The notes below the pieces were generated by a model, which saw only the letters and a program-made list of their open reading frames with translations, was not told the origin of the DNA and did no database searches. Shown one piece after another: positions 6,244 through 53,000 of a stretch of 64,000 bases of DNA (its first letter is position 1; every line of letters starts with the position of its first letter). The DNA lies in contig NC_068575.1 in NCBI RefSeq assembly GCF_025698545.1, forward strand, positions 53,515,980 to 53,579,979, read 5' to 3'. The DNA is from Gossypium raimondii. Taxonomy: Eukaryota; Streptophyta; Magnoliopsida; Malvales; Malvaceae. Made by a program: the position numbers and the translations under genes.

Positions 6244-6681
6244 CAATTTCCATTTAATTCACGTACAATTGAATGACATTAAGTTCAACACTAATACGTA
6301 TTTACCATTTAACTTAACGTTTATCGATTATACCATTCAATAACACATTTATGAAATTCTCAATTTTGCAATGAAAATATCACTTTAGCTTAAATAACAA
6401 CATCATCCTGGTATAAATACACTACCACTTATCCATTTACTTTAATTCATTTGGGCCCATTTGTCACTTACCATCCTTAATCAAATTAGGGAACGGTTAC
6501 GGAAAATTAAGTACTTCACTTTGACTTTGCCATAGTATAACTATGGTCTTACGTATGATCACTTATCACTTGTCCCTGATCAGATAAGTGTAGCTAAGGC
6601 TACCACTTATCACTTTGTCACTTGATCAGATAAGTGTAGCTAAGGCTACCACTTATCATTTTGTCACTTGATCAGATAAGT

Positions 6682-9600
6682 TGTAACAGCCCGATTTTGG
6701 TTCTAGTCGGAATAGTGGTTTCGGGACCACAAATCTGACGAGGAAAAATGTAATGGCCTGAATTTTCAAAGGTGTCAGAACGGTGATTCGAGATCACTAA
6801 ATTTGAAAAATGAGTAGAAAATATTATTAATTTAGTGAGTATAAGTTAAATGTGAAGTTAGGAAAATTTTTTAAATAGTGAATAGTACACTAGAAATAAA
6901 TATTAAAATAATTAGAATTGAAAACGAGGTATTGAGACATCGGAGATTTTAAACCGAGCCATAAATATTTTTATAAATATTTATGGAGTGTTAAAAAGTT
7001 AGTATTAAAGTTTCGTCAAGAAATTTTAAAGTTCCGATAATTAATTGAACAAAAAGGACTAAATTGTAACAAATGCAAAATTATAGGAAATGATTAAATA
7101 GCTTAAATGATAAAAGGAAGAGGACTTAAAAGGAAAATAGACCCAAGGTCTATTTGGGCTGGACGGCAAAGGCATGAAATCAGCAAGAAAGTCAGGAGAA
7201 TTAAGGGTAAAATTGGAATATTGCAAAATTTGCTTAATAAAGTTAGGACCAAAGTGGAATTATCTAGATTTCTCTTCATTTTTCTGCATTATCATCAGCT
7301 AAAACACCATAGAAGGGTTTCTTCAAGCTGGTTCTTCATATTTTTACTGCAGGTAAGTTCAATTCTTGATTATTTCTTGAAATTTTTGTGTTTTTGGGAC
7401 TTTTACAACTAGGCCCAGTTGTTGAATTCATTAGTTTTTGATTCTATGAAAGAATTTGAAAGTTTCTATAAATACATGCTGGAATTATATGATGATTTAG
7501 CATGGAATTAGAGCTTTAAATTGTTCATATGCTGATTTTATTGAAAGAATTGAATAGAAAGTGAATGTTTGGGACCTAATAGTAAAAGAGTTTGAAGATA
7601 GAGTTATATGTGGAAATTCTGAATTTCAATAGTTTTGATACAACTTATAATGTCTAGGTAAAGTATTAGTTGAGAAAATTAGATTAATTGAGGGGTTAAT
7701 TGAGAAAGGACCAAATTGTATAAACTGTGAAATTTGGGGCAAAATAGAAATCAGCATTTTGCACTAAAGTAGTTTTGGACAGCAGCAGTAGTATAACTTT
7801 GAAAAATCACCAAAAATTGTGGGAATTGAATTAGAGGGTGAATAAAATATGAAATTAAAGCTTATTGAGTCTAGTTTCTTATAAAAGAAACGGTGTAAGC
7901 AATAGAATTATAAATCATGAGATATAATAGATTTTGTGAGACAAGGTCAGAATGAATTCAGGTTCCCCTGTTTTGATTTTGTAAAATCATTAAAAATTGT
8001 ACAAAAATGATTATGAGTTATAACTTATATGTTTAGAATCCTTAATGAGTCTATTTTCATAAGAAGCAAATGAAAACATCATCCAAGTTTTGTAAAATGA
8101 GATGATTAATTTTAGTGAAGAGTGGTTGAAACTGTCAGACAATGAAATAGGGAAATTTAAAGAATAAACTGTACTATTTTGCTAAACAAAAATTCTGAAA
8201 ATTTTATGGTAAGAAGATATGTGAGTCTAGTTTCAGGGAAAATTTACGGATCTTAATTTGGAGCTCTGTAACTCTAGATAAAAATAATTTAGTAAATCTG
8301 ACTCAGACAGACAGCTTGAATTTTACATACAAGAAAATAGTGAAAGTATGAATAATGTTGTTTAAGTGTGTTATACACATTAAGGATGTGGAATGGAGAG
8401 GAGGAGGAGGAAAATTGAGAAATATATGAATGATTTGTGTATAATTGGTCATATGCTTGATTATAATTGATAAACGATGAAATAGAAATGATGCTTATAT
8501 TTGTGCATTATTGGTCATGGTTTAAGCTCATGTGTGAAAATAAAGTTTCATAGTATGTGTGTATGGTATATTCGGTATATGATTGGCATGAAATAATGTC
8601 ATGAATGGTTTATGAATTAACACATGTTGGTAAGCCTGATACATGAATAAGTGTTGTGCTCATCCATGCTTATAATGCTTATGCTATATGTGTATTTGGC
8701 TGACATATTTGGTGTATATACTTAGGCTTTGGCCAAGTAGTGGCTAGATTATGCTATGTTAAATTTATAAGTTATGCATTGAAATGGTTTATCATGTGGT
8801 TAGCCCCAAAAAGAGTTATATTTAAATACACTAGCTTGCGACTATGGTTGAATGATATGTTTATATCTTATGTGATGTGCATAGAAAACGAGTGTGGAAA
8901 GATGATGAAATAATAAGTTCATATGGCTGAAATTTAATGATTAAGTGTTAATTTCATGAAATATATAATGTATGATGAAATGTATTTAGTGTTGAAATGA
9001 GAGTAAAATAAAAATGCGAAAATCGAATAAATGATCAAATTAAGCGGAACGGCGAATTTGAGTACTTCTGATCAAGAGATAAAGTGATAAGTGGTAGCTT
9101 TAGCTACACTTATCTGATCAAGTGAAAAAGTGATAAGTGCTATACTTATCTGATCAAGTGACAAAGTGATAAGTGGTAGCTTTAGCTACACTTATCTGAT
9201 CAAGTGACAAAGTGATAAGTGGTAGCCTCACTACACTTATCCGATCAAGTGAAAAGTGATAAGTGGTAGCCTCACTACACTTATCGATCAAGTGAAAAGT
9301 GATAAGTGGTAGCCTCACTACACTTATCGATCAAGTGAAAAGTGATAAGTGGTAGCCTTAGCTACACTTATCCGATCAAGTGAAAAGTGATAAGTGGTAG
9401 CCTAGCTACACTTATCTGATCAAGGACAAGTGATAAGTGATCATACGTAAGACCATAGTTATACTATGGCAAAGTGAAAGTGAAGTACTCAATTTTCCGT
9501 AACTGTTCCTTAATTTTGATCAAGGATGGTAAGTGACAAATGGGCCCAAAAGAATTAAAGCAAATGGATAAGTGGTTGTGTATTTATACCAGGATGATGT

Positions 9601-10041
9601 TGTTATTTAAGCTAAAGTGATCTTTTCATTGCAAAATTGAGAATTTCATAAATGTGTTAATGAATGGTATAATCGATAAACGTTGAGTTAAATGGTAAAT
9701 ACGTATTAGTGTTAAACTTAGTGACATTGAATTGTATGTGAATTAAATGGAAATTGCTAGTGATATGATTTAAATTGTGAGCATGAGAAATTGCGAATTG
9801 AATGAAATGGAAACGAAGCATTGAATTGCATGAGTATGTATCGGGTCTCGTAGGCCCAATTTTATTATGATTATAATGTTTTGAGGATATATTGTGAAGA
9901 GTTATAAAAGCATGTTAATAATTTTGAAAGTTTTAATTTAGATGAAATTTTATAACTCGGTTAAATACGTTTGCAAGTGTATGTGTTCTAGTACTGCCTC
10001 ATACCCTATTCCAGTGTCGGATATGGGTAAGGGGTGTTACA
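6682..10041 (+). mobile_element. Solo chromovirus LTR A (plus sense)
   Basis: The 3,360-base repeat begins TGTAACAGCCCGATTTTGG and ends AAGGGGTGTTACA. It is flanked by taagt (6677-6681) and taaat (10042-10046), a five-base target duplication with one difference. No internal coding region is present, so it is a solo LTR. It inserted into the hairpin array of an older, oppositely oriented copy of its own family. Sense is inferred from the related element at 29894-34625, where the same LTR end is followed by a tRNA-iMet primer site. Confidence 0.85.
9086..9440 (+). repeat. Tandem hairpin array in LTR A
   Basis: About eight copies of a 43-46 base unit each contain GATAAGTG-g-TAGC facing GCTA-CACTTATC, which can fold into a stem of up to 13 pairs with one bulged G. 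The first is at 9086-9114. Copies differ in the loop (CTTTAG, CCTCA, CCTTAG), and one copy is shortened. Matching arrays occur at 6583-6681 and 10050-10215 in the older copy. Confidence 0.85.
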
Positions 10042-12611
10042 TAAATGTAGATAAGGCTACCACTTATCACTTTGTCACTTGATCAGATAAGTGTAGCTAA
10101 AGCTAACACTTATCACTTTGTCACTTGATCAGATAAGTGTAGCTAAAGCTAACACTTATCACTTTGTCACTTGATCAGATAAGTGTAGCACTTATCACTT
10201 TATCTCTTGATCAGAAGTACTCAAATCCGGCGTTCCGCTTAATTTGATCATTTGTTCGATTTTCGCATTTTAATTTTACTCTCATTTCAACACTAAATAC
10301 ATTTCATCATATATTATATAATTCATGAAATTAACATTTAGCCATTAAATTTCAGCCATATGAACTTACTATTTCATTATCTTTCCACACTTGTTTCTAT
10401 GCACATCACACAAGATATAAGCATATCATTCAACCATAGTTGCAAGCTAGTGTATTTAAACATAACTCTTTTTGGAACTAACCACACGATAAACCATTTC
10501 AATGCATAACTTATAAATTTAACGTGGCATAATCTAGCCACTACTTGGCCAAAGCCTAAGCATATACACCAAATATGTTAGCCAAATACACATATAGCAT
10601 AAGCATTATAAGCATGGATGAGCACAACATTTATTCATGTATCAGGCTTACCAACATGTGTTAATTCATAAACCATTCATGACATTGTTTCATGCCAAAT
10701 CATATACCGAATATACCATACACACATACTATGAAACTTTATTTTCACACATGAGCTTAAACCATGACCAATAATGCACAAATATAAGCATCATTTCTAT
10801 TTCATCGTTTATCAATTAAAATCAAGCATATGACCAATTATACACAAATCATTCATATATTTCCCAATTTTCCTCCTCCTCCTCTCCATTCGACATCCTT
10901 AATGTGTATAACACACTTAAACAACATTAGCTATAATTTCACTATTCACTCACATGTATATTTAAAACTGTTTATCCGAGTCAGAGTCACTAAATTATTT
11001 TTATCCGGAGTTATAGAGCTCAAAATTAAGATCAATTAATTTTCCATGAAACTAGACTCACATACCTTCTTACCATAAAATTTTTAGAATTTTTGGTTCA
11101 GCCAAATAGTATAGTTTATTCTTTAAAGTTTCCCTTGTTACGCTGTCTGACAGTTCCGACCACTCTTCACTAAAAATGAATTATATAATTTTACAGAATT
11201 TGGATGATGTTTCCATTTATTTCCTTTGAAAATAGACTCATTAAGTATTCTAAGCATATAAATTATAACTCATAATTATTTTTCTTCAAATTTTTATGAT
11301 TTTCCAAAGTCAGAACAGGGGAACCCGAAATCATTCTGAAATTGTCTCACAAAATTTATTATATCTCATGATTTACAATTTCATTTCTTACATCAGTTTT
11401 TCTATGAGAAACTAGACTCAATAAGCTTTAATTTCATATTTTATTCACCCTCTAATTCAATTCCCACAATTTTTGGTGATTTTTCAAAGTTATACTATTG
11501 CTGCTGTCCAAAACTGCTTTAGTGCAAAATGTTGATTTCCATTTTGCCCTAAATTTTACAGTTTATACAATTCGGTTCTCTCTCAATTAACCCCTCAATT
11601 AATCTAATTTTCTCAATTAATACTTTATCTAGACATTATAAGTTGTTTCACAACTATTGAAATTCAGAATTTCCACATATAACTCTATCTTCAAACTCTT
11701 TTACTATTAGGTCCCAAACATTCACTTTCTATTCAATTCTTTCAATAAAATCAGCATATAAACAATTTAAAGATCTAATTCCATTCTAAATCATCATATA
11801 CTTCCAGCACATATTCATAGAAACTTTCAACTTCTTTTATAGAATCAAAAACTAATGAATACAACAAGTGGGCCTAGTTGTAAAAGTCACAAAAACACCA
11901 AAATTTCAAGAAATAATCAAGAATTGAACTTACCTACAGTAAAAATAGGAAGAACCAGCTTAAGGAAACCCTTCTATGGTGTCTTTGCTGATGAGAATGC
12001 AGAAAAATAAAGAGAAATCTAGATAATTCCACTTTGGTCCTAACTTTATTAAGTAAATTTTGCAATATTTCAATTTTGCCCTTATTTCTCCTTACTTTGT
12101 TGCTGATTTCATGCCTTTGCCGTCCAACCCAAATAGACCTTGGGTCTATTTACCTTTGAATCCCTCTTCCTTTTATCATTTAAGCTATTTAATCATTTCT
12201 CATAATTTTGCATTTGTTACAATTTAGTCATTTTTATTCAATTAATTATCGGAACTTTAAAATTTCTTAACGAAAATTTAATACTAAATTTTTAACACTC
12301 CATAAATATTTATAAAAATATTTATGGCTCGATTTAAAATCTCTGAGGTCTCGATACCCTATTTTTTTGTTCTAATTATTTTAATATTTATTTCTAGTGC
12401 ACTATTCACTATTTCAAAAATTTTCCTAACTTCACATTTAACTGATACTCACTAAATTAATAATATCTTCTACTCATTTGTCGAATTTAGTGATCTCGAA
12501 TCACCGTTCCGACACCTCTGAAAATTCAGGCTATTACATTTTTTTTCCTTGTCGGATTTGTCGTCCAAAAACCACTGTTCCATCTAGACCCAAAATCAGG
12601 CTGTTCTAGCC

Positions 12612-13538
12612 TTGGTACTTGGTTCGAGCGCAAGGGGTGTCAAAGCCAAGAAGGTCGAAAGCGAGAAGAAGCCAGTGGAGTGCTTCTTGTGTCATGGTCC
12701 GCATAGGTTGCGGAAATGTCCGAGGAAGCCTGTCATCGAAGGGAACGATGGAGCAGACAAGGAGCCTAAGAAGCTTGGTTCGAGCAAGGGAAAAGTCGAA
12801 GCCAAGATGACGAAGAGGAGCAAAAAGAAGCGAGTAAAGTGCTTCTTGTGCCGTGGTCCGCATGAGTTGCGGAACTGTCCAAAGCAAGCCGGAGTCAAAA
12901 GAAAGGCAACGTTTGAGCTTTGTGAGTCATCGGAGGGGCTTCCACCCAAGGAAGAGGTGAGTTTGCCATTAGACTTAGAGGAAAGAGTTGCGATGAAAAC
13001 AGTGAAGCTGGGACCAATGAGGCTCAAGTTGAGTGAAGTGTCGGAGTTGGCCGAGTCATCGACAAGGCTTCCACCTATGGGAGAGGTGGGTGGTGCATCA
13101 GACTTCAAGGAAAAAGAAGTGATGCATGTGGGACAGTTGACCAGAGTAAATGCGAAGGTACATTCAGAACACTGTGATAGTGTTTTGCATTCTAACTCGT
13201 TGACTTGGCAAGAACGTAGGGGCCCTTTTGAAGTTCTTGAGCAAAGAGGCCGAGAGACTGTGGGCAAAGTGAAGCCAAGGGTGGTGAATCACGAGGATTC
13301 TATTCGAGCAAAGTTAGAATGTGGACAAGAGAGTGACATAACTTCTTGTCATCGAGATGTACAAACGAGTAGGACGGTTCGAGTGAAGAAGCGACGTAAG
13401 CCGAAGCAAAAGTCCCGAAGGAAGGGAAAAGCTAAAGAGTCGAGACAAGACCAAGGCGAATCAAGTCAGTGCCATTCGGAAGTCACAACGAGGACGTTGC
13501 GAGAATGGATGGGGAGAATGTCACGGGCCGCAGTTTAA
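12612..13538 (+). pseudogene. Retrotransposon gag C-terminal fragment with two zinc knuckles
   Basis: The 308-residue open frame has no ATG-led natural start and stays open upstream to the truncation, so it is a 5'-truncated gag. Two internally duplicated modules carry zinc knuckles CFLCHGPHRLRKC (residues 24-36) and CFLCRGPHELRNC (77-89). Both have C-X2-C-X3-H-X4-C, one residue short of the canonical knuckle. A second duplicated module (SSEGLPPKEEV, SSTRLPPMGEV) follows, then a very basic C-terminus (VKKRRKPKQKSRRKGKAKE) suited to nucleic acid binding. The last residues run into the LTR. Confidence 0.7.
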
Positions 13539-24173: not shown

Positions 24174-24209
<36 letters not shown>

Positions 24210-27200
24210 TTTTAGAAATTTTTTTATTTCCGAATTAGGTGCAGGATTCATACGGGCGTATCACATAACAAATCTTTTCATAAGAAATTGCATAACTGAA
24301 ACCTTTCCACTCTTTCATAAGCTCAATTATATTTTCATCTAAGCACTTACCATTCCAATGTACCTTATAATTAAACATATTACCATTCAACAGTAATTTG
24401 GCTCTTGCCAAAACTTCAAGCAACAACATTGGTTAGCGTACTTTAATATTGACAAACTTATTTTCTCGCCATGTCTCACTTAAATTTATTACTCGTCTTA
24501 ATACACATAAATTTCCTTGTATCAACGTATCAAAGATAGTCTCATATTTACATGTCATGATACATATCATTTTCTTGTTGTTTCTTCTTAAATATAAATC
24601 ATTCAATTCATTATGACAATATTTCATGTACCATAATTTTTATAAGTTCAATGTATATTTATTCCAGTAGCAGTTCATAATCTTGAATATGCATAATTAT
24701 CAGGCAAGTTTCACATACATGTATTTTCCATGTCATATTTCAGTATATCAAATAATTATCATTTCTATGTATTTCAAGTTTAATTTCATGATTTTAAGTA
24801 CTTATCATTTTCTATTTTTATCCCGTTGAATTTATCAGAATTTTGATGGATTTTCAGGGGTACACTTTAGTGTACAAATTCGGGTCCGTCAATTCATATT
24901 AATGTGCGCACATTTTCCAATTCAGAGAGCACACTCTCGCGAACCTCATTTCTTACAGCGGGATTACCAGTCCAGGCTAAATCCCCTTTAAGAGAGCACA
25001 CTCCCGCTAATCTCATTTCTTACAGTGGGATTACCAGTCCAGGCTAAATCCCCTGTAATATAAATTCATAGAGTATTGTCGGGATTACCAGTCTAGGCTA
25101 AATCCCCTGCAATGACAATTACTCTAATGAGCTTGGATCTGAATTACCAGTTCAGGCTAAATTCAGACCCTAATTCGGATTACCCGTCCGGGCTAAATCT
25201 ATTTTCCACATATTCTTCGGGAGGGCTATATCAAGATCACCCGTCCGGGCTAGATCTTTTTCACACATATTCTTCGGGAGGGCTATATCAGGATAGGATC
25301 AGCCGTCCGGGCTAGATCCTTTTTACCGTCAATTCCTTTTCAAAGATCCATCAAATTTTCCTTTCATTCAACCGGGATTTCTTCCCCTTTTTATCAATTA
25401 TATCAATGTTTCAATGAACATTTAAATCATATTCACATCAATAACATACATTTCAAGCATTTAAGAATATAATTCAGGTTACACGAACTTACCTCGTTAC
25501 TTGTTCGTGTTTACAATTTCACTAATCCGATGTTTTTTCTTTTCCATGTTCAAGTCTCGTATTTGAGTCATTCGGATCTTTATAAATAAATTTAATCATC
25601 ATTTTCATTCATTTCATATTCTGATACATTCAATTAATGCTCTAGGCAAGATTACTATTTTGCCCCTAAGCTTTTAATTAATGACGATTTTAATCCTTAG
25701 GATCAGAAAAATAAATTCTTGTAATTTTAATCCTTGTTTTAAGCCTAATTATTCCCATACATGTTGATAACAACCCATGAATTCTATAAAATATCAAATT
25801 TTTTCATAATTTCAACACTTTTCAATTTAATCCCTAAAACATGTTTTCACCCGATCTTGTTCTAATTTCATTCAATTTTGTAATTTAAATAAATAAAAAT
25901 CCATTTCATGCAATTTGGTCATTTTGACATTTTACAAAATTACCCATAAAATTTTACTTTTATTCAATTTAGTCCTTGAGCCTAAAACGTGCAAATTATC
26001 CATGCTATCTGAATATTCATTCATATATATATATATATAGATTTATTTATTTTTTCCTCCTCCTCTCCATTCCACATCCTTAATTTATATAACATGCTTA
26101 TAAGTAACATTATCTATGATTTCATTATTTACTTGTAAATTTATTCAAAGCTGTCTATTTGAGTCATAGTCACTAAATTATTTTTATCTTGAGATAAAAA
26201 ACTCCAAATTAGGATCCGCTAATTTTACCTGAAACTAGACTCACATATCTTCTTACCATAAAATTTTCAGAATTTTTGGTTTATCCAATAAGTACAGTTT
26301 ATTCTTTAAAGTCACCTCTGTTCTGCTGTCTGACAATTTCGACCCTTCTTCACTAAAACTTAATTATCTCTTTTTACAAAATTCGGATGATGTTTCTGTT
26401 TGTTTCTATTGAAAATAGACTCATTCAATATTTTAAACATATAAATTTAAGCCTCTAATTATTTTTATTAAATTTTTTATGATTTTTAAAATTCAAAACA
26501 GGGGAACCCGAATTCATTCGACATTGTCTCACAAAATTTATTATATCTCATGATTTAAAATTCCATTACTTACACCATTTCTTCTATGAGAAACTATAAT
26601 TAATAAGATTTAATTCCATATTTTTTCATCCTCTAATTTGATTCCCATAATTTATGGTGATTTTTCAAATTTAACCTACTATTGCTGTCCAAAACTGTTT
26701 TAGTGCAAGATATTTATTACCATGTTTATAACACCCTTATTTTCTTTCTCTACACTATTTCTCATCACTTTCTCTTATTTTCTCTTAACTAACATATCAA
26801 GAACATAGGACCATATATACGAAAACTTTACATTAACATCATTTCCATACTTTTCAATAATATCAAACTTAAAAATATATTAAAATCTTGATGTTCTTAC
26901 CTTGTCATATTGATTTCAATCTTTAACTTGATTTTCTCTCTCCTCCAGCTTCTATTTCTTGAATCTAACTTGATATTCTAGCTCCCCATAGTCTCCTTGT
27001 TATCTTTCTCTCTTCATGGATATGGAAATTCTTTTGATTTCTAGATGAAAATGGTAATTTTTTGGTGAAAGGACCAAATTGTAAAGAAAAGAAAGTTTCT
27101 TTCTCTATTTTCTCTTCATACGTTGGAATGCATGGGAGAAAATGATGATTCTTCATCTTTCCTTCCATATATATATACTAAATAAAATAATAATAAAATA

Positions 27201-29246: not shown

Positions 29247-29651
29247 GGTCTCTTCTCTTATTTTGGATGAAACACAATAGGAAAATAAAATGAAAGAGGT
29301 GAATTAAGGAAGTGGAACTAGTGAAGCTTTTATAGTATTTTTTCGACCCTCATAAAAATAGTGTCTCACCGTAAGATATGTCCACACAATCTAATTTTAG
29401 CATATAATTAACTACTTTTTATTTTATTTAATTTCCCTTCTTAGTTAGAGAAAAAACAGATATATGAAACAAGAAAATCCTAAAAAAAAAATTCCAACAA
29501 AAAATAATTTATTAATAAAATGACAAAATTACCATGTTACAAGCAAAAGAAAAGTAAATTTGAAATTTGAAATCATTCAAAATTGTTAAGAAAATGAAAA
29601 TAAAAATAAAAATAAAAATAAAAACCTATGAGGTTGAAATAATTTAGACAT
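29247..29651. other. Promoter region of inhibitor-like gene copy 1
   Basis: Shares blocks (for example CACACAATCTAATTTTAGCA) with the promoters of the other two copies, so the duplication included upstream DNA. A run of AAAAT repeats is near 29595-29625. Confidence 0.5.
29328..29334 (-). promoter_or_regulatory. TATA box of inhibitor-like gene copy 1
   Basis: TATAAAA on the minus strand, 82 bases upstream of the ATG. The same position and context are kept in the other two copies. Confidence 0.7.
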
Positions 29652-32230: not shown

Positions 32231-32235
32231 ATAAA

Positions 32236-34625
32236 TGTAACACCCTTAACCCGAATCCATTGCCAGAACAGGGTTACGGAGCATTACCAAAATTTACAAA
32301 TTAATTATCAGACATTTCATTTCATCTAGCATTCATATTTGAAACCAATCAAAATAAAAAAAATATTAATGAGCCAACGTTGGCCAAATTAACTTATACA
32401 TGCCATTATAACCAAAATCAAATCATCCAAAATTACCGATAGAACCAATGGATAGTGTGATAAAACTCCGACAAGCTTCCAACCCAATCGAGCTTCTGAT
32501 AATCTGAAAAGTAAAGAAAAACAAGTACGTAAGCAATAAATGCTTAGTAAGCTCGTATAAACTTTAATCATGACCATTCATTTCAAATATGAAATTTATA
32601 AATATCAAGAATAATTTAATATTGATACCACAATGCTCATGTGGCTATATTCATAAACTCACAAGGTAAATAAATCCACATCATCGCTTGTACATATTAT
32701 CCCTAGTAATATAGGATTTTAAACAACTTTATACTCTTTCGAATTTCTTTATTTTCATTTACATTTCTTTACTTTCTACACTTATTCCATATGCATAACA
32801 CACCAGTCATGACCATATCATTCAACCATAGCCACAAGCTAATGCATTTAAACATAGCCTTTTTCGAATTAATCGTATAATAAGTCTTTTCTTAAGAAAT
32901 TACATAACTTTAAACTTACCACTCTTTCATGAACACAAGCATATTTTCATTTGAGCACTTACCATTTCAATGCATCTTATAATTAAACATATCACCATTC
33001 AATCAATAGCTTGGCATTTGCGTAAGCATCAAACAACAACATTTGTTAGCGTACTTGAACATATTTCATATAATTTCAACATCGATAACCTTACTATCTC
33101 AACATGTTACACTTGAGTTCATTACTTGTCTCCACTTACATAATTTCCATATATCAACATATCAAGATATTGATATAAATACATATCATAATACATATCA
33201 TTCTCTTACCATTTCTTCATATACATATATATAATATTCAAGACAACTCCCGATATTTTACCTTTCGAAGAACGACTTACGGATATGAGTACCTCGTTTT
33301 TAGAAGCCCGAAGGCTGAATAGAAGCTCATGAGAGCTAAACAGATAGTAAACACAAAAGTTCACAACAAATGTTGAACCTCGGTTTACTTGGGTAATTTG
33401 TCGTCAATTCATCTTTTACATTTTTCGTCAATTCATTCTTTACATTCGTAGTGCCATAACTGTGTTATGGTCTTATCATCAGAATGCCATAAGCCAGCTA
33501 TGGTCTTACATATAAACACTGTCATAATCCAACCATGATCTTACGTTCATAGTGCCATAACCTAGTTATGGTCTTATCATCAGAATGCCATAGTCCAGCT
33601 ATGGGATATGGTCTTACACAGTAGCACATATCACACTAATGCCATATCCCAAATATGGTCTTATGCAGAAACTCATAATCACATCACACCGATGCCATAT
33701 CCCAGCTATGGTCTTATACGGAAATCACATATCACATGTTTCCATGGTCCAACCATGGTCTTTTCCATCAATTCATCTTGGCCTTTGAACGAAAGTACTC
33801 AAATCCATCGTTCCAACTAATTTGTACTTTTACTTAAGCATTATTTTACAATAATCAAAATTTTATAACATTTATATACAATAATATACCATAATATTCA
33901 TGAAATTTTCATAACAAAATATTGAATTTAGCCATATGAACTTACCAGGCTAAACTGTAGAAATACCAAGATTCAGGGGCATTTTGATAATTTTATATTT
34001 TTCTCGATTTTCCTCTCAATCTTAATCTGTAGCAAAAATATGAAAACCAGCTTGACCACTCCTCCTTCTCTATTTGAACCGAAAATATGAAGAAGAAATG
34101 TCTAGAAATTCTTTTAAATTCAATTTGTCTTATTTAATTTCAAATTATTTACCATTTTGCCATTAAATGGCTTTATTTTATTATTTTCTTCTCTTATCTT
34201 TGCCTCATCCTTTTCCTTTAGGAAAAATTGCTATTTAGATCATTCTTTATTTATTAATCATTCCATTTAATCATTTAGTTATTATAATTAGCAAATTTTG
34301 CACATTTTCAATTTAGTCCTTTTAATTAATTGACTACCAAAACAATAAAATTTTTCAACGAAACTTTAATACTACCTTATTGACACTCCGTAAATATTTA
34401 TAAAAATATTTACGGCTCGGTTTATAGAAACAAGGTCCCGATACCTTATTTTCTAAAACCACTTAATCGAATAAATCATTATAAAGCACAAATTACTAAT
34501 TCAAAAACCTTTCTAAAATCATATTTGACTCGTAAATATTAAATAATAAAATGTACGAGCTTAATCGCCAGATTTGGTGGCCTCGAACCATTATTTTCGA
34601 CATCTCTAAAAATCGGGATGTTACA
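32236..34625 (-). repeat. Complete LTR of element F
   Basis: 2,390 bases, sense minus, with TG...CA ends. It contains the 17-base palindrome array at 33454-33758. Confidence 0.8.
33454..33758 (-). repeat. Array of 17-base palindromes with covarying stems in LTR F
   Basis: Eight 17-base units sit before GTC or GATC and mostly a TCTTA or TTTTC sequence. Perfectly paired stems are CCATAAC/GTTATGG (33454-33470, 33555-33571), CCATAG/CTATGG (33588-33604), CCATAT/ATATGG (33642-33658) and CCATGG/CCATGG (33742-33758). Three units (33487, 33522, 33695) have one or more internal mismatches. Both arms change together at the inner pairs. Confidence 0.88.
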
Positions 34626-35658: not shown

Positions 35659-35659
35659 G

Positions 35660-39718: not shown

Positions 39719-40403
39719 TTAAAAGTGGACCATGTCGAGACCAATGGTCAAGGTGTTGCTAATGATCTTTCCAAGCATTGCATCCATCTCTTTCATCGGC
39801 GATTCGAGCTTAGCCTGTTTGAATGCATTGTCACAGCCTAGTATGTTTTCCACATTAGTGCCTAGCTCTGTGCTCAATTGGACAAGGTTATGATTGGAGA
39901 TAGCTTCAAAGGATTTCTGATCACTGTTAAGAATGTTATTGTAGACGTCGATGCATGTTTGAAGGATGGGAACAACATTCTTAGGGGGTAGTAGGGTCCA
40001 TTGAGAGCTTTGTAACCTCAGCTAATGCATCTTTGGTCTGGTTATCCATTGCTTCAATCCCAGCTTTAAGGACAGAAAGAGGCTCAATAGGAGTTTTCTC
40101 ATCTAGGAATGGCATAGTTGCTATTATACATTCGACGGGGTGATCAGTGTTCCCACAAATTTGCTGAAGGGTAGGGTTGACACCGCTAGGTAGTATGCTT
40201 AATAAATTGTCAATACTTTCCAATGTTATACCATCAAATGCAAATGGAGATGGTGATTCAGACATAACCTCAATCATATCATAAAGTTCTGAAAAAGTAG
40301 GGCTAGAAGCGTCGGAAAGGGATGGAGGTGCATTGGTAGAGGTTGAGAAGGACAAGAGACAAGTGAAAGAGATAAGTGCAAGGATGAAATGGTTGATCCC
40401 CAT
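39719..40403 (-). pseudogene. Pectin methylesterase/invertase inhibitor-like gene, copy 2, frameshifted
   Basis: The copy starts MGINHFILALISFTCLLSFSTSTNA (signal peptide) and is close to copies 1 and 3 through the first two domain cysteines. After DPTTP there is a run of five G (39984-39988, plus strand) where the other copies have four. This +1 shift takes the frame out; the remaining sequence (CIDVYN, GCDNAF, final VHF) is well kept in the other frame to a stop at 39719-39721. The last two cysteines are lost from the product. The low decay suggests a recent break or an assembly error in a homopolymer. TATA box at 40496-40502. Confidence 0.85.
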
Positions 40404-40495
40404 GGTCCCTTCTCTTCTCCTCTCTTGGACCAAAGCAACACAATAAATTATAGGTAAGAGGGTTTGGTGTGTTAGGGAGTTGAAATTAGTGCAAA

Positions 40496-40502
40496 ATTTA
40501 TA
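40496..40502 (-). promoter_or_regulatory. TATA box of inhibitor-like gene copy 2
   Basis: TATAAAT on the minus strand, 93 bases upstream of the ATG, in a context shared with copy 3 (CACTATAAA). Confidence 0.6.
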
Positions 40503-43500
40503 GTGTTTTCTAGGCATGTATTGTGGATGGTAATTATGCCACACAATTTAATTTTAGCATATAGTTAGTTTTACACCTATTTTAACAGTTGAAGTTCACT
40601 TTTATCAATTTTCCTTCACATAAATTAGAGAAATTGGAAGTATAAAACAAGAAATATATAAATTAATTGTAATATGTAGGTTTAGACATTTAAGAAAATG
40701 AGACTTTATTTAAATTTGAAAATGTTGAAATTAGTGAATAAAATAAAAATAAAAATTCCCAGGTAATTACCTAAAATTACATCGTAACAAGGCTAGTTGT
40801 CAAACATGAAAAAAATATTGTTTTCAAAAGTTTGACACAATACACTTAGCAATCAAGGTCATTAAGCCAAGAGTTAGTTATTGGTAATGAGGCAAACCAA
40901 CAAAAAGTAGTTAAGCAGCCTAAGAACCAGGTAGAGACACCTATAGGGAGGAACAGCACTAAAAGGCAACAGCCCTAAAAAACTATACCTGACACTCGCC
41001 AGGTTCGGGTATCGGATGATACAATAACCCAAATAACTTAATGATATTTCTGATTTTGCTTTAATTACATGCTTAAATGACTTAAATTTCAAAATCCAAC
41101 TGTTATTAAAACTCATACATAATCAGTGATAAATTCTTACTACTTCGATCCCAAAAACTATTTAAAAATTGTAAATTAAGACTCAAATACATATATAAGA
41201 AACTTAAACCCTGAGGCATGACCTTTAGGGATGCCCCTCTATATACATGAACAACAACCCCGCCCATCACTAGTCTCTGGCAGTGTAGAGCTTAGTCCCT
41301 CCACTAAATTCCTGAGTCATCACCTACCCTGCATAAAATCAGTAAAAGTTATAAGTTCGGGAGAACTTAGCAAGATCCTATACAATGGTATCCATAGAAT
41401 ATTTCTTTGAAATTAAGAAAAATGAATATTTAAGCACAGATGAAAAACTCCCTGAAACTCGTAGGAAGATCTATAATTTCTCTAGCGTAGCCATTGCCTT
41501 GTTTTTTTCAAAAAAATTGTCAGTGGACATTACCACTCGCCAAAACTATGTTCTAAAAATTATTTTCTTATGGGTCTTAACCATGTTTATCATTATTCCA
41601 AACTTCTCTTAAACCCGTCAGGATATGCCTCAACACGGATTTTCCGCATTTGCTACCATGGATGTGGCACAACCAACTGGCATTTTAACCTAAACCTCGC
41701 CATAGCAGCAAATCTCTTCCTTGATCCTTTTGATCTACCCTGATCTCTATGCAAATTTGTTGTACTATTTCAGCAGTAACCTTCTTTTTGACTTAACCTA
41801 TACATGTATCCTTTTTTTATATAAAGTCTTTTTTTTATCATCCTCATTCGCGGACTTGAATAAGATAATTGGTTGAATGAATCAGCACCCTCATTTCTTT
41901 CCCTAGCGGACTCGTACCCGTAATGTAACCCTAGAGTGCTTACTCTCTAGATCCCAATCTTCTTAAGATACTCCAATTTCTTAACAGTTCTTAATGGACT
42001 ATTCCTACCAAACTTTACCTTTGGTAGTCCGACATAGTCTTCCCAATGCTATATAGTCTTGATGGACTTTTGTTTCTTCCAATAGTTTTTAACGGATTCA
42101 AAATAGTCCTTCACAGGCTTCTTTGATAAATGGTCCCCATAGACTTTTTCACACTAACAAGTCTTAGCCTAACATCCTCTTTCTTTGAAGATCTCTGGTG
42201 GACTTGTCGATCAAATCATTTAGCTTAAAATCTACTTCATTGACTCACCCATTGTACCCATTGTTAGATTATTCGCCAATCGTTGGTGAACTAATAATGA
42301 AGGATATCCCATACCTTAAATAGGGTACCCCTTCTATTACCCTTGCCTTGATAATACCACATATATACCAAATTCCTTTTTCCGTCACAATGTGGCGAAT
42401 TCCCCTATTAACAGGCTTACCCGCATTCTCGGGCACTTCTATTAGCTATTCTCCTCTTCATAGTTAGGCTGTAACAGCCCAATTTTGACCCTAATCGAAA
42501 TAGTGGTTTTGAGACCACAAATCTGAGTTTGAAAAATATTTTAATATTATTTTGTGTGTTTATGATGTGTGAATTTAAATGTGTGAAAGTTTCGTGAATT
42601 AATTTTGTTTTTTTTATGTGTTTAATTTGACAAAAGTATCAAATTGCATAAAATGTGAAGTTTGATTATTAAGGTGTAAAGTGTTTATTTAATGGTGGCT
42701 TTTAAATATGAGGTTCTTAAAGGGCAATTAGCCCATTTTAAAAGATAGTGGACGGCAATGATAGTTAATATATAGTTTTTATATATTAAATATAAAAGTT
42801 ATAATAGTAATAGTATAATATTATATTATTATATCATTAAAACATAAAAGAAATAAGTTTTTTTTCTTCATTGTTTGTATCATGAAAACAAAAGAAAGAA
42901 ACTTTGTTCTTCAAGCTTTAGCATTCGCCATCTTAGGGATTTCAATTCAAGGTTAGTTTGATTTTAGTTTTGATAATTTTTACGTTTTTGTGATCGTTGC
43001 TTTGAATACTTCAAAACCCATGTCTTAATTTTGTGAATTGTTGATGATTTGAGAAATGCCATTGATGAATGCTTGAGCTTGTGATAGTTGATGATGAAAT
43101 ATGAAAGATATGTGAAAGATTAACATGCTTTGTCTTTGAATTTTGATGAATTTGAGTAATTAGGGTTAAGTTGTAAAATAAAATTTTGAGGACTAAAATG
43201 TGAAATAAATGAAATGTGTGGGTTTGTATAGACACTAGGAATATTCGCCCTTAAGGAGTGTAGTCAAATTTTGTGTATTTTGTGTTTTGAGCAAAAGGAT
43301 TAAATTGTGAAAATGTGAAATATTGGGGTTAAAAATGTAATTTGCCCATTTATATGTTCTTAGACTAAATTGAATGAAAATATGTTTAAATGAGATTTAT
43401 TTGAATATGTTTAGATCAAGAAACCAAGAAATCAGATTTAGATCGGGGGAAATCAAAGGTAGTTGAGTAGTCGATCTATTAGTCGACGATATCCGAGGTA

Positions 43501-43629
43501 AGTTATTAAGCATACATATTTGTGTCGTTTTAAATTATCTTAACATCTAGGTAATTATGCTGAATTGAATTGATATATATATGTAGTGATAAAATTTTTG
43601 AAATATGACGAATTGAGTTGTCAACTTCC

Positions 43630-43775
43630 AACACTAAGTGTGCGAGTATGAAAATATACGATAATGAGATTAGCACTAAGTGTGCGAGTTTAATTGAAAT
43701 GCACTAAGTGTTCGAGTATAAGGGTAAAGCACTAAGTGTGCGAGTTTGATTATTAAGCACTAAGTGTGCGTACTT
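43630..43775 (+). repeat. CACTAAGTG palindrome array in LTR B
   Basis: Five copies of GCACTAAGTGTGCGAG or close variants are spaced about 28-41 bases apart. Each core can pair CACT with AGTG, or GCAC with GTGC. Stems do not vary between copies here. Confidence 0.8.
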
Positions 43776-44726
43776 ATTAAATATTTTCGAAAGATTATTA
43801 ATATCAGTATTTGATTTATCGAGAAATCATGAGTAATAAAGTGAGTAATAATTATTTTGGTGGTATTCAAGATTAAGTTTTGTAAGTATTAAACCTAGGT
43901 GGTGATTATAATTGGAATCATATTTATTTAAGATGATTCTTTATATTTTATGATAATAAAATGCATAATGTACTTGGCCTTGTACTTAAATTTGAAGAAA
44001 TGCTTATAGTTGTGTTATTATATTGTTTTTTTTTTTTTTTGTAAATCATAGTATGAATTGAATAATTATATTATGCTATGGTAAGCTAAAGGTAAGATGA
44101 TTTAGAAGTATGAATTGGTTAAATATTATTCTAGATGTCAAGTTAAATTGTAGAGTTTATTTGCTTGTAACTTACTAAGCTAAATTAGCTTACAATGTGT
44201 TGGATTATTGTTTTGATGTATAGATTTTGGTGATCGCTACGTGTTCGGGTGTCGTCAGCTAAGCTCATCACACTATCGGTGTCTTCTTTTGGTATTTTGC
44301 TACATTGTTTTCAAATATATGGCATGTATGCATAGTTAAAAATGTTGATTTTGAAACCAATGTGTTTGTGTAATTAAAAGCCATGCGAAAATGGCTTATC
44401 TCTTTTTGTTTGAATTTGATTTTGATACATATAGTTTAATGGACAATTTGGGGTATATGCTTATGTATCATGTGCATGATTAATTAGATTTGGATAATGT
44501 ATATATTTGGCTTAGATATAAGTTCAATATTTTTTTTTCTTTTTAAGGATGTGATGACCGATTGTGTGGTGTAGGTTTGATTTAGTGTATGCATATTAAG
44601 CATGTAAATTGGGTATAAAATTAGAGGTTAATAGTGTATAATATGGTTCAAGTTTATCAAGGTCATATGCTTTAAAAATGGTAGTGAGAAAATAGGTACA
44701 TTTTTGTGTTATAATTTGATGTATAA

Positions 44727-45090
44727 TGCTGTCCATTTTGAGTATATTGATGCTGTCCATTTTAATGTATAATGCTGTCCAATTTTGAGTGTATTGATGC
44801 TGTCCATTTTAATGTATAATGCTGTCCAATTTTAATTATATTGATGCTGCCCATTTTAATGTATAATGCTGTTCAATTTTGAGTGTATTGATGCTGTCCA
44901 ATTTTGAGTATATTGATGCTGCCCATTTTAATGTATAATGCTATCGAATTTTGAGTGTATTGATGCTGTCCATTTTTAATGTATAATGCTGTCCGATTTT
45001 AAGTATATTGATGCTGTCTAATTTGATGTATAATGCTGTCCATTTTGAGCATATTATTGCTGTCCAATTTGCTGAATAATCACTGTCCAA
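44727..45090 (+). repeat. Tandem repeat with GCTGTCCA core in LTR B
   Basis: A unit of about 47 bases alternates TATTGATGCTGTCCATTTT and TGTATAATGCTGTCCAATTTT half-units for some seven turns. Variation between copies is by point changes. It is not palindromic, unlike the array at 43630. Confidence 0.8.
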
Positions 45091-46306
45091 AATAGGGTTG
45101 GTTCCTTATGTCTGTAGTATGTTACATAGTTAATCATTTATTAATGAAATAAATGTATGCAAATAGTAGTTTTAATATTGGCTCGGCATAGGATATTTAT
45201 TGATAAATGTAAATTTTAAAATGTTTTAAGTACATGATTGATATTTGATGTGAATTGTTAATGACTTATATTTTTGGCGAATAAATTGTTTTTGATAATT
45301 AAGTGAAATAAATTAGGATTTTAAATTTATATATTTACATATTCAAAACACATATTTATATACAGCTTGATATTTGGTTCATTCTGTTAAGTGTAATATT
45401 TCAATATTTAGTATCACTCCTTAATCCTAATTCGGCGACGGATATGGGTTAGGGGTGTTACATAGGCAGATTCTCTTACTATCCCATTTACCCGCATTCT
45501 TAGACACGTCGCATTCATCCAAATTTACTACTCTCTACATGAGTCATACAATGATCTCCCTTTTCCTGCCCTATTAGCTTATTGGTTCATCATCCTGGTA
45601 GACTTTATCTGACGTCATAGCCCAGCTATGGTCTTACACAACATACCTCTAATTTAATGTCCTAACGGACTTTTGGGAAATGTGCCCATATTGTAGTAAA
45701 CATGTAGTTATTTTCTATGTATTTAAACGATGAATAAATAAATTTCAAATTTCACTGTTATGTCTTTTTTATTTCTATCTCTCATATTTTACATGCATAG
45801 AAAAATTGTGACAATCAAATATTAGCTCATTGATTATTTAAGTTCAAACTGATGATAAGTGGCATTGTAAGAACATTTACATTACAATAAAGATAACTTA
45901 CTTCAGTAGATAATCTAAACGAGTCTGTAGTTCCGTAAAAGAATCAAAGTGAGCATTTGATTCAAATATTGAGAATGATTATTATGTCGTTTACAATTCC
46001 AATTGAGGAGATGGCTAGTCTTGGCTACCGGAGCAGTTGCCTCCACGGGTAGAGACATAGATGTATTTATTGGCAGAATGATACATTGGACTAGACTCAA
46101 GATGAACTAATTCTAAATTCGTTTGTGAATGAATTCACTTGTGACATTCATGGTGTGATTTACCTAAATCCTGAGTTAGTCACTGACCATGCGTATGTAA
46201 CTCATGTGCTTTTATAAGTGGAGGCTTATGCTCTAAAGATGATCGAGCCGATAGCCGGTATGTTTGGTACATGACTTGTGTATGGCATGACTTTACTAGC
46301 AACAAT

Positions 46307-48549
46307 TGTAACAGCTCGTTTTCAATAAAATCAGAACAGTAGTTTCAGAACCACAAATCTGAAGTCAGAGAAAGAATTTATTTTATTATTATTTTATGGT
46401 CTACTGTATGATAAAAATACAGTATAAAAATTTCGTTAAGAAATTTTACCGTTTACATACCTAATTTGATAAAAGGACTAAATTGCATTAAGTACAAAAG
46501 TTGAGTTCTAATAGCTATTGGTATTAAATAGCTATAGAATTTTAAATTGGAGGTCCTTATATAGTAAATAACCATTAAAATGCTTAATGGATAAGCATGA
46601 CTTTAATGAATTATTAAAAGTAATTTTGGAAAGTAATGATTAAAGTTATATTAAATAAAAAATCTATTATCATTATCATCCACCAAAATAAAAGAAAAAA
46701 AAGAAACCTTAGCCATGGAAGCTTGAGATATTAGCAAGCTTATTTTGCTCAATTAAGTATGTATAATTGTCACGTTTTAATGATTTATATGTTTCGAGAT
46801 CGTAGTAGCTTAATCTACCTAACTCGGGATTAATTTGCAAAATAATTAAAGTATTAGGGTTTTCCATTGATGAGTATGCTTTAATTATTACTTTTATGAT
46901 AGAAAATGAAAGGTTGTTGTTAGATAAACAACTTTTGTAAAGAGAATTTTCTTTGAAATTATTAATTAGGGACTAAATTGAAAATATGAGAAATTTATGG
47001 TAAAATTGTAAATTTTATAAAATCTATGGGCTTCTATTAATAGGTATAAAAATTTGCTAGGCTTGAGTAAGGATTAAATTGCATGAAAGTTATATTCCGA
47101 GCCTAAGGACTAAATTGTAATAAATTAACAGTATAGGGGAAAAATAGTAATTTTGCCAAAAATATGTGTTGGACTAAATTGAATATGAATTATATTAAAT
47201 TGAGTTAAATTCATTCGTATAGATCTTGTCAGACCTCGTACAGAGCTAAATCGAGATAAAGAGAAAATATCAGATTAGTTGCCTCTGTATCTACGTACAC
47301 TTATTGAGGTAAGTTCGTGTAATTAAATTGTACATTAACATGTGTTAAATTGATTTATTGTTTGTGAATTGTACAATTATCATGTATAAGTACCGATCGC
47401 ATATCCGATGATTATCGAGTCTAGTTTGAACTTTATGAAATCCGTAGGATACAAATGACATGTCATTAGGGTTACCAATTTTGGTTGGAGTCTTGCATGT
47501 GTTGCGGACACACCACAGCTCTTATGAGCTTTCCGATAATTTTCTCACATGAACTTCCCGTTATTCAGCTCGCATGAGCTTCCTGTTATACAGCTCGCAA
47601 GAGCTTCCCGTTATTCAGCTCGAAGGAGCTTCCCGTTTATAGCTTGTATGAGCATACATGAATATGTATTGACGAATTACAGTTCAGTACACCTTGTGTG
47701 TACTACCCGTGCATCCAACAATATTCTAAATGGTTCAACAGGCACAATCTGTTTTGAAATTATATGAGTCCGATATGAACTATTACCGGTATATACATGA
47801 AATTCATGAAATGTGATTACTTGATGAATTCATCCATGTGAGATGAATCTTATATGTGAATTACATGGCTAACATGTTGAAGATATGTGTTTAGGCTTTT
47901 GGCCAAAATGGTTTGGATATGTTTATATTCTTACCTTAAATGTGATTAAATGGTAAGTTAAATTTTGTATTATACGAACTTACTATGCTTAAGTTGTCAT
48001 TTAGGTATATATGAATTTGTTCATTTAGGTAAATGTCAACGCATATATGAATTTGGTCATTTAGGTAAATTTGAATATTTGGTTGACATGTTTTTAAGTT
48101 GTCATTTGAGGTGCCTAAGGGCACATTGGTTGTATGTGATTATAATTCATGATTAAGACTTGAATTTGGTTTGTTTTGAATGGCTTGTTGTGGCTTGTTG
48201 ATGTGCAAAAATATTGGGTTAAGTTGATGTCAAATTGGGTAAGAAATGTGGCTTGGAAAATGACCTATTTTTATCCACACGGGCAGGGACACGGGCGTGT
48301 GTCTCAGCCGTGCAACTTTGAAAATTTTAATGTTTTTTGAAAAATTCTTTGAGTACCCGATTTAGTCCCGACTTGATTTTAACGTGTATTTTGGGCCCCG
48401 AGGGCGCGTATATGGGACAATATGTATGATTTCGATTGATTTTTGATATGAATGTTATATTATGTGAAATTTCTGATTAATTGATCTATAAATTTTGGTA
48501 ATGCTCCGTAATCCTGTTCCGGCGATGGATTCGGGTTAGGGGTGCTACA
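46307..48549 (+). mobile_element. Solo chromovirus LTR C (plus sense)
   Basis: 2,243 bases, TGTAACAGCTCG to AGGGGTGCTACA, flanked by acaat (46302-46306) and acagt (48550-48554), a duplication with one difference. The shortest copy in the window. It contains the AGCTC/GAGCT array. Confidence 0.85.
47517..47654 (+). repeat. AGCTC/GAGCT palindrome array in LTR C
   Basis: Units of about 25 bases with AGCTC-nnnn-GAGCT at 47517-47530, 47567-47580, 47592-47605 and 47617-47630, a decayed unit near 47545 and a last one at 47641-47654. The four-base loop varies (ttat, gcat, gcaa, gaag) while the arms are kept. Confidence 0.85.
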
Positions 48550-50083: not shown

Positions 50084-53000
50084 TGTAACAGCCCGATTTT
50101 AGCTAAATCATAAATTTGAAGTCGTAAAAATTATTTTAATATTATTTTTGATGTTTACAGTATGTGAATTAAAATGTGTGAAAATTTCGTGTGAAAATTT
50201 TATCGTTTGTGTGCTCAATTTGATAAAAGGGTTTAATCGCATAAAATGCAAAAGTTGCATGCTATTTGTTAAAGTGCTTAAATGATGATCGTTGAGTAAT
50301 ATGAAATCCTCATTATGCAATAAGACCTTGCTTGATGATGATGGACAATAATGACCTTATATAAGATTTTTGCATGTTATTTCATTAATGGCTTTTAGGT
50401 AATTTGGGAATTAAATTAATAAAACAAAACAAATTTTTTGTTCATATTTTTCATCACCATTGCCGAAAAACAAAAGAAAAAGAAATTTTTGAAGCTTCAT
50501 TAAGTTAGGCACTTGTATAGCTAGATTAAGGTATGTTCTTTGCTCGGTTTTTTATAATTCTTACGTTTTTGAGATCGTTGTTCTGAATACTAGAAAGCCC
50601 ATGCTTGAATTTTTGAATTTGTTGTGGATTTTTTTATTTGCCATTGATGAGGGCTTGTTGTTTTTGTTGTTTGATGATGAAAAATAAATTCTTGTTGATA
50701 GATTATTATGTTTAATTAAGTGATTTTTAGTAAAAATGTGTATTAAGGATTAAATTGTGAATTTTTTAAATTGAAGGATCAAAATGTAAAATAAATTAAA
50801 TATATGGGCTTATATGAACCAATGGAATATTCAGCCAAGCTTAGGTGTGGTAAAATGTTGAATATTTTGTGTTTTGTGAATTAGGGACTAAATTGTGAAA
50901 AATGTGAAATATTAGGGGCTAAAATGCAATTTGCCCATTTATGTGTTTTTGGATGAATTTGAATAAATATATGATTAAACAAGTCAAAATTTTATTGAAT
51001 TAGATCAAGAAAAGAAGAAATCGGATTTAGATCGGGGGAAATCAAAAGTTGTCGAATAGTCGCCCCGTTCCGTTCGTCTTCGTCCGAGGTAAGTTCGTAA
51101 GTGAATAAATGATGTTAAATTGAATGTATTTATTTTATACATAGCTGAATTGTATATAGGTATAACTATATTGTCGAATTAAATTTAGCATAGATTGATT
51201 AGTTACGAGCTTAATTTGATTGATTTACAACATCCAAAAGCTGTTCGAACCACAGGAAATCCGATATGTGATATCGTGTAAGACCACGTCTGGGACGTTG
51301 GCATCTATTTGAGATTTACGTGTAAGATCATGTCTGGGACATTGCCATCGTATATGATTACGTGTAAGACCCTGTCTGGGACAGTGGCATCGTTATTTGA
51401 TTACATGTAAGACCACGTCTGGGATGTTGGCATTGTACAAGCTTTTTGAACTATCTGAGTAACCTTTTTGATTCTGAATGGTACAAAGGGAAATGATACG
51501 GAAAAAAACCGAATGTGAATTCAAATTAAATGATTCATGTATGTTTGAGTTATATGAAATTGGGAAGTAAAGGTAAGTAGTGTAGTATAACATAAAAGTA
51601 TGAACTAATCACTTGATTATGAATTATATATATTCTTTGAAAAGAAAATTATTTGCTTATGACTTACTAAGCTATTTAGCTTACTGTGTGTGTTTGTTTG
51701 TTCATTATTTTATAGATTTTGGAAGCTAGCTACGAGCTTGGGGATCGTCAAGAAAGTCCGTCACACTATCGATTTTTATTTCGGTATTTTAAAAGCTTGA
51801 AACTTTGAACATATGGCATGTATAGGCTAGTATTTGTTTTGGTTGGTCTTGAAACTTGTATATATTTAGCCATGCGAAAATGGCTCAATCTTTATGCTAA
51901 AGCTCTAATGTTTAAGTGATTTTTTATCATGAAACATGCGTGTGGAAATCTTAATATATAGATGTGTTTTGATTGTTAATGAAGTTTATGTTATGTATTT
52001 TCGGTAATGGTGTATATTATGTGGTGTGTTAGTATTTGATTTTGGTATGAAGTAATGATATATAGATATGTGACTTATGATTAGTTCACTTTGGTATTTG
52101 CTTATTACTTGAGTTTATTATAGAAAAATGTTCCATTGTATATATGCTTGTGTTGTTTTAAAGTATGATTCGGTAATGGATGATTACAAGCTTGGTTTAT
52201 GGAACATAGGTCAAGTAACGGTTAAGTCATTATTTTTGATTGGTTATTTAGATGCGAATGGTGATAGTAAATTATGGATATGTTTTATGGTGGCTTGGTT
52301 TGATCATAAGAGTTTGAATTTCTGGACCGAATATATGAAAAATGAAACGGTTGAACATATGTTATTTGGTTGATTGTTTTAGTACGAATCTAAATGGTAA
52401 ATGATGATTATGAATTTGGTATGTTTTGGGTAGATTAAATGGATAGTTAAAAGTATCAAAATAATGTTAATATTATAATAGGTATGCACATATGTGTGCT
52501 TGTAAATTTAGTTTAGATATATGGTTTATTTTGGTAAGCCTAAGATCTTCATAACAGTGTGATCGAATCACTGAACTAGTTTAAGTTATTAAGCTTATTT
52601 CCGAGTATATATGTGTATGATGTTTGTTATGTGATTTGGTATGGAATAATGATAAGCATAATGTACATTCGACCAAGATGTTAACTTATTTTAAAGTATG
52701 TTTGTGGCATATGATATGGGATGGAATGGTATGAAATTTTTGTTTATATTTGGTGATTGAATTTATGACCATTTAGATAGATAACAATGTTAGTTAACGG
52801 TTATAAACGACTAGTTATAAGTAAAATAAATGTGCTTGCTAACGTTAAGATCATGTGTATTTGGTTATAAATTCGGCTTGTGATGGCTAGAAATAATCAT
52901 GATTTCTAATGACAAGGTTAGATTAATATTGAATGGTAAAATGGTTGTGTTACTTTCAAGTTTAAATTTAATAGCCGTAATAGGTAATAAGTGAATTGGT

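Follow-up and report, generated by a model that had tools for sequence, protein, structure and literature searches.

A hairpin module with covarying stems, arrayed in long terminal repeats of cotton retrotransposons, and its possible action at the RNA level

Many nested long terminal repeats (LTRs) lie in the window analysed here, a stretch of 64,000 nucleotides from the cotton Gossypium raimondii (G000:C11:53515980-53579979). They start with TGTAACA (TGTAATA in LTR E), end with GGTGTTACA (GGTGCTACA in LTR H), and align to each other piecewise at about 68-95% identity. A sequence-only reading of the window had noticed a short hairpin at five places and proposed a common, functionally constrained element shared by different LTRs and by unrelated LTR debris. 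The locus raises the question of whether this hairpin is a single element, what has preserved it and what it may do. The window was examined together with a genome search of 750,779,957 bases, which covered cotton (Gossypium) only. The hairpin unit is real, beyond chance and well beyond one window, and constitutes one homologous module borne by the LTRs of cotton LTR retrotransposons that form a related group.

Fifteen units in the window (A, A2, D1-D4, F0-F7 and X) fit the frame GTAAGACC-stem-loop-GGC, i.e., TAAGA-CC-stem-loop-GG-C. All five places noticed earlier carry this frame where it had been put, and the units of LTRs A, A2, D and F are all in LTR sense. Their locations are as follows.

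9444..9474, plus strand: unit of LTR A, with loop TAT and stem CCATAGT/ACTATGG; it lies at the distal edge of the array that belongs to LTR A itself
6525..6555, minus strand: A2 unit with the same hairpin, in an older copy of LTR A
33446..33767, minus strand: array of LTR F, eight units F0-F7
51275..51437, plus strand: array of LTR D, four units at a period of about 43 nt, with an unpaired T in the 3' arm
45610..45640, minus strand: single unit X

The cores of A (9453-9469) and A2 (6530-6546) have perfect 7-bp stems and 3-nt loops. The inner arms of the F units read, in order, ATGGT/ACCAT, ATAGC/GATAT, ATATT/GATAT, ATAGC/ACTAT, ATAAC/GTTAT, ATGGT/ATTAT, ATAGC/CTTAT and ATAAC/GTTAT, and those of D1-D4 read ACGTC/GACGT, ATGTC/GACAT, CTGTC/GACAG and ACGTC/GATGT. 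F0 starts with AAAGACC, and F3 has additional bases that separate the flank from the stem, with the core aligned. The frame as first drawn began with GTAAGA; it holds overall, but four of the eight F units have ATAAGA at this flank. A2, described earlier as an older relative of A, does carry the unit, but the two belong to one family (94.5% over 439 nt and 91.5% over 2,576 nt) and are not independent, so that the five places represent fewer independent cases. The hosts are also less varied than had been claimed: the LTRs form one related group, and X is a lone unit for which no LTR context was found; among the sequences compared only the unit itself has matches and its flanks have none. An antisense open reading frame (ORF) across the D units has matches in Gossypium arboreum to two predicted proteins of small size (E 1.2e-6 and 0.024), and an ORF across the F array has no protein matches.

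Homology between the units is borne out by covariance models from which one group was left out. A model built from D, F and X recovers the omitted A and A2 units at 28.3 bits (E 1.6e-5), with the top non-unit in the window at 12.8 bits. A model built from A, F and X finds all of D1-D4 at 17.6-22.0 bits (E 0.0026-0.043); its top sense-strand non-unit reaches 14.5 bits and the antisense of F7 16.3 bits. The lower scores of the left-out D units make the link of D weaker than that of A in this test. Stem types also co-occur within single arrays of the genome (for example, ATGTC with ATAGC; ACGTC with ATGTC and CTGTC). Public viral and prokaryote collections gave no plant relatives of the unit; two viral matches in them read as phage-like coding sequence, and three others are bacterial by record title. 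Bacterial and viral loci were set aside as a null for the models (best 18.5 bits), because they had been retrieved with the motif and are, therefore, biased.

The shortness of the motif would favour a chance resemblance picked by eye, as would the TAAGAYC sites of the window, about half of which are not units. This explanation is rejected by the leave-out models and by counts across the genome. A pattern with GTAAGACC and GGCATC fixed and 13-14 free positions between them gave 1,441 + 1,489 = 2,930 matches, and the reversed pattern, used as control, gave 0 + 0. When the outer bases were left free, in a pattern that returned 28-nt units only, 1,637 matches were obtained (control 0), adding the stem TAGTC/GACTA; the LTR A frame with a free interior gave 368 (control 0). 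By comparison, an off-register frame, shifted by one base, gave 10 matches, with 1 for its reversed control. The probability of chance is negligible, and the idea is already refuted by these figures.

The genomic copies share the location of those in the window. The loci compared were the first by coordinate, 46 loci of 1.5 kb that correspond to 27 separate arrays, grouped by hand from coordinates. All 46 match LTRs of the window, against one of 10 off-register loci, that one weakly, and this agrees with the earlier claim of an LTR-borne element that has expanded into arrays, as in D with four units and F with eight. The A, D and F units lie inside LTRs bounded by TGTAACA..TGTTACA. Neighbour spacing is 41-44 nt in 41 of the 52 unit pairs closer than 130 nt. 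With a length of 27-28 nt, mostly in arrays of this period within LTRs, the units are arranged unlike dispersed insertions such as those of miniature inverted-repeat transposable elements (MITE) or of terminal-inverted-repeat transposons. The order ACGTC-ATGTC-CTGTC occurs in LTR D of the window and in two other loci (L018 and L038), and with single-base changes in a third (L019); other arrays are ordered otherwise. The A and F arrays (9060-9490 and 33287-33800) are bounded by inverted flanks (GAGTACTT..AAGTACTC / GGTACTC), which close the whole array in the predicted fold of LTR A.

Changes on the two sides of the stem are coupled, as the sequence-only reading had proposed. Standard pairs fill 94.9% of the 98 cells in the 14 distinct rows of the window, and six of seven pairs show two-sided changes; on four of five measures the observed value is reached by 0 of 500 shuffles. 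The fifth, further pair types, is not distinctive (97/500). In the D and F arrays alone, where units were not picked for their pairing, 95.2% of 84 cells are paired and six of seven pairs are again two-sided, and the shuffles that reach the observed values number 0/500 for the score, 1/500 for the pair number and 50/500 for pair types. For the genome, the rows are the 100 matches listed of the 2,930, all on contig C1 and in many cases neighbouring units of a single array, read as a 5-bp arm, a 3-nt loop and a 5-bp arm. Standard pairs occupy 469 of their 500 inner cells (93.8%), with two-sided changes at all five inner pairs; when each distinct row is counted once, which leaves 60, 271 of 300 cells are paired, whereas 2,000 whole-arm shuffles give 217 on average and 235 at most. 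Double-changed states are commoner than single-change ones at most pairs of the listed rows, as at pair 2 (T-A 73, C-G 19, T.G 2, C.A 1). Pair 5 is the exception (T-A 3, T.G 5, C.A 3), as doubles are not commoner there. The six perfect stem types are ATGTC, ACGTC, CTGTC, ATAGC, ATATC and ATAGT. Beside these changing pairs, the unpaired flanks (GTAAGA, GCATC) and the loop (TGG in 69 and TAG in 16 of the listed rows) are kept; both are strand-fixed and non-palindromic. An additional unpaired base in the 3' arm, present in 76 of the 100 rows, spans four perfect stem types. The stem drifts by two-sided changes while its surroundings stay, which suggests that a folded shape, and not one fixed word, has been kept.

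Paired changes could also arise without any selection on shape. Templated (template-switch) copying in replication or reverse transcription would perfect quasi-palindromes, tandem duplication would multiply single units, and transposition would spread the source stem. The dominance of a few discrete stem types fits such a process, and many of the matches are transposed or tandem copies, so that the number of rows greatly exceeds that of independent paired events. The process does not account as readily for the asymmetric unpaired base, the flanks and the loop that persist beside the changing pairs. It is also at odds with LTR A, where the 13-nt unit interior is intact in 333 of the 368 frame matches, against 44 of 100 listed matches in modal form, counted by hand, for a frame of the same size located about 116 nt downstream (164 matches, against 6 for the reversed pattern), a control that mixes subfamilies, since a second form makes up 29 of its 100 listed rows and 4 others are unrelated. 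The exact 28-mer of the LTR A unit has 333 genome copies, and the eight loci retrieved with it are all LTR A copies. On balance, we consider templated correction a possible but rather unlikely explanation.

The position of the arrays points to a transcribed context. The motif AGGTAAGT (AG/GTAAGT) lies 100-420 nt upstream of 20 of the 27 arrays in LTR sense, and TACTAAG lies downstream of 21; both occur in 18, and in 17 a YAG follows 25-62 nt beyond TACTAAG. The contexts are mostly GAG/GTAAGT and TACTAAGC..GCTTAC followed by a pyrimidine-rich stretch and TATAG/. In the oriented loci (39, some overlapping) AGGTAAGT occurs 52 times in sense and never in antisense, and in the 10 off-register loci it occurs on neither strand. 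The window contains six copies preceded by A, C or G ([ACG]AGGTAAGT), all in LTR sense, against a shuffle mean of 1.17 and a maximum of 5. Three stretches of the window have this intron-like organization.

51089..51715, plus strand: intron-like frame of LTR D, enclosing its array; GAG/GTAAGTTCG ... TACTAAG and pyrimidines ... TATAG/
43498..44223, plus strand: intron-like frame of the related LTR B, homologous to D on both sides and enclosing another array (GCACTAAGTGTGCGAG, 43630-43770)
32504..33945, minus strand: intron-like frame of LTR F, enclosing the F array; CTG/GTAAGTTC ... TACTAAG ... CTTTTCAG/

From this organization we infer a working intron and an action at the RNA level. Our preferred reading, which is put forward tentatively, is that the homologous module in the LTR arrays acts as a cis RNA element in splicing or in the export of unspliced RNA. 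Units mostly at a 41-44-nt period often stand inside an intron-like LTR stretch composed of AG/GTAAGT, the array, and TACTAAG-pyrimidines-AG. Read as RNA in LTR sense, the array would form a structured intronic element, which may keep part of the transcript unspliced or aid the nuclear exit of unspliced RNA. Such an action would protect the LTR from loss of its middle part during retrotransposition.

A role at the DNA level is a less probable explanation. It takes the unit as a palindromic binding site or a cruciform in the LTR promoter, in the unique 3' (U3) region, with the arrays as enhancers or phasing signals. U3 tandem repeats are known regulators, according to PMC3601003, which cites tobacco Tnt1. 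The tight 41-44-nt spacing and the bounding of the A array by GAGTACTT..AAGTACTC are in keeping with such a role, but no half-site is constant across the six stem types, the loop and flanks are strand-specific, and the place after a 5'-splice-like site suggests transcribed sequence.

Related LTRs can hold different arrays at one position. In LTRs B and D the sequences to either side of the array are homologous (42532-43510 with 50127-51101; 44157-44329 with 51649-51823), but the arrays between them differ (43630-43770 versus 51275-51437). In LTRs H and C, arrays likewise lie shortly after GAGGTAAGTTCG. The array of C is built from a different hairpin.

24961..25319, minus strand: array of LTR C, seven units of the hairpin GGATTTAGCC..GGTAATCC, shortly after GAGGTAAGTTCG

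The C hairpin is paired in 95.8% of 48 cells, with two-sided changes at three of eight pairs; shuffles reach the observed score in 2/500, the pair number in 21/500 and the pair types in 500/500. This similar behaviour of another array is a further point in favour of templated correction. The arrays at the conserved place are, then, GTAAGACC-GGC in D and F, GGATTTAGCC-GGTAATCC in C, AGCTC-GAGCT in H and GCACTAAGTGTGC in B, and two of them covary. It is conceivable, although doubtful, that these LTRs carry an intron-like module whose core is an exchangeable hairpin array. Unrelated hairpins would then occupy one conserved place shortly after G/GTAAGT, and selection would act on shape and place, not on sequence, to maintain a switch in splicing or RNA export by which the LTR persists despite its own intron.

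Several other hairpins and arrays were observed in these LTRs. The covarying array of LTR C (24924-25319, minus strand) can be written GGATTTAGCC..GGTAATCC / AGATCTAGCC..GGTGATCT. The hairpin AGCTC-NNNN-GAGCT is tandem in LTR H (47518-47650), and one copy of it (AGCTCTCATGAGCT) lies past the F array (33320-33345, minus strand), as if LTRs shared hairpin types. LTR B has a second tandem array with a 47-nt period (44715-45070), downstream of its intron-like frame. A further LTR hairpin with a 12-bp stem, CC[A/G]TAAATATTT..AAATATTTA[T/C]GG, is located at 6959-6986, 12300-12327 and 34388-34415; A, A2 and F all retain it, with a pair that changes on both sides from A-T to G-C.

Several observations weigh against an RNA element acting in splicing or export. 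The likeness to an intron is read from motifs alone, and the frames are alike in part because the LTRs share descent. Within the 1.5-kb loci the upstream motif is absent in 7 of the 27 arrays and the downstream motif in 6; LTR E has neither splice-like motif, AGGTAAGT of LTR A is 1.7 kb before the array, and the site in F is TGGTAAGT. Predicted folding of whole arrays is uneven, with z values of -7.8 for A, -4.2 for C, -2.5 for both F and H, -1.4 for B, -1.31 for D and -0.7 for E. In the model of the D array the units pair mutually, with a stability that is not unusual, and the arrays of B and E are predicted to fold weakly. If a palindromic stem changes neutrally, single changes of the G.U and A.C types should be equally frequent, whereas selection on the sense RNA would spare G.U. 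Around ATGTC/GACAT, the G.U-type singles number 42 (376 - 334) and the A.C-type singles 53 (387 - 334; p 0.30), and in 76 of 79 array units (three with four mismatches were excluded) there are 16 G.U and 12 A.C. A preference for G.U hinted by the 100 listed rows (25 versus 10) was not confirmed by these counts. The present copies thus carry no RNA signature, which is consistent with a DNA-level role, and the single-change variants appear neutral, as templated correction would have it. The functional constraint suggested by the sequence-only reading is not secured, as the single-change variants lack a G.U preference and palindrome correction could also yield the paired changes.

Most copies are presumably dead and decaying neutrally, and the G.U comparison consequently has little power for past selection. 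The extra unpaired base, the loop and the one-sided flanks speak for the recognition of a shape and against simple copying of a palindrome. Taken together, these points lead us to rank RNA-level action in splicing or export first, with modest confidence, and templated correction and a DNA role close behind. It is improbable that the hairpins give rise to small RNAs that contribute to silencing the element. Thousands of similar LTR hairpins could supply them, but the window has no match to Rfam 15 at the gathering score, and 7-bp stems alone are far too short for Dicer.

Among the remaining features of the window are the LTRs themselves.

6682..10041, plus strand: LTR A, inserted in the array of its older antisense relative, A2
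12605 to 10042 and 6681 to 6244, minus strand: A2, older antisense copy of LTR A, start not located
ends at 23966, minus strand: LTR C, start not located
32236..34625, minus strand: LTR F, TGTAACATCC ... GGTGTTACA, followed by the primer-binding-site-like TGGTATCAAAGC
42470-45462: LTR B
46307-48549: LTR H
50084..53381, plus strand: LTR D, TGTAACAGCC ... GGGTGTTACA
57984-61153: LTR E

The sequence TGGTATCAAAGC after LTR F is close to what we take to be a methionine-tRNA primer site. A linked pol, as assignment to the Ty3/gypsy type would require, was found neither in the flank of LTR F nor in four flanks of unit-bearing LTRs. The ORF at 12588-13535 has 259 protein matches; of the 120 listed, 119 are named Gossypium, and several relatives have a retrotransposon gag domain. 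Seven LTR 3' ends (10041, 45462, 48549, 53381, 61153, 32236 and 23966) look similar by eye and show an apparent terminal stem, clearest in E (CCGTATTC..GAATACGG), the letters of which vary among families by the same inspection. A pectin methylesterase/invertase inhibitor-like gene is present between the LTRs in three copies related to each other (28569-29303, 39981-40547 and 54410-55264), assigned by Pfam PMEI for the first and third copies and by DNA similarity for the second. A perfect (GTAT)27 tract is located at 61362-61469. LTR A (6682-10041, within 6244-12605) is a nested insertion into a palindromic hairpin array of its own family, in opposite orientation. For plant LTR elements, cotton included, PMC6911290 describes nested insertion and a weak preference for palindromes, with LTRs not commonly targeted.

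No published description of the unit was found in searches of open-access papers, either by its letters or by concept. Tandem repeats occur in the U3 of plant LTRs, as in tobacco Tnt1 (PMC3601003). These are also short tandem repeats within an LTR, but the cotton units are hairpins with a covarying stem, and many of their arrays follow a 5'-splice-like site. The same text describes stem-loops conserved in the R (repeat) regions of retroviral LTRs; both sides of the stem are conserved within the LTR there too, but the cotton array is tandem and exchangeable. Retroviral constitutive transport elements (CTEs), such as the CTE of Mason-Pfizer monkey virus (MPMV) and that of SERV-K/MER11, release unspliced RNA from the nucleus (PMC11379458). 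The cotton element may be likened to them by its proposed job, the export of unspliced RNA in cis; it belongs to a plant and lies inside the LTR. Stem-loops of enod40 are related to tandem repeats and transposable elements, and their hairpin sequences are likewise present as tandem repeats in plant genomes (PMC10578108), but enod40 is a host RNA gene and the monomers are mostly 60-210 nt.

The middle parts of plant retrotransposon LTRs are usually regarded as fast-changing filler. If the preferred reading, that of an RNA element in splicing or export, is true, they would hold a rare structure-constrained cis element in thousands of copies, with covarying stems, a fixed orientation and a splice-like frame. 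Such an element would bear on how these retrotransposons make both spliced and genomic RNA, and on the length of their LTRs. A natural experiment is also at hand in the differing arrays of related LTRs within a single genome.

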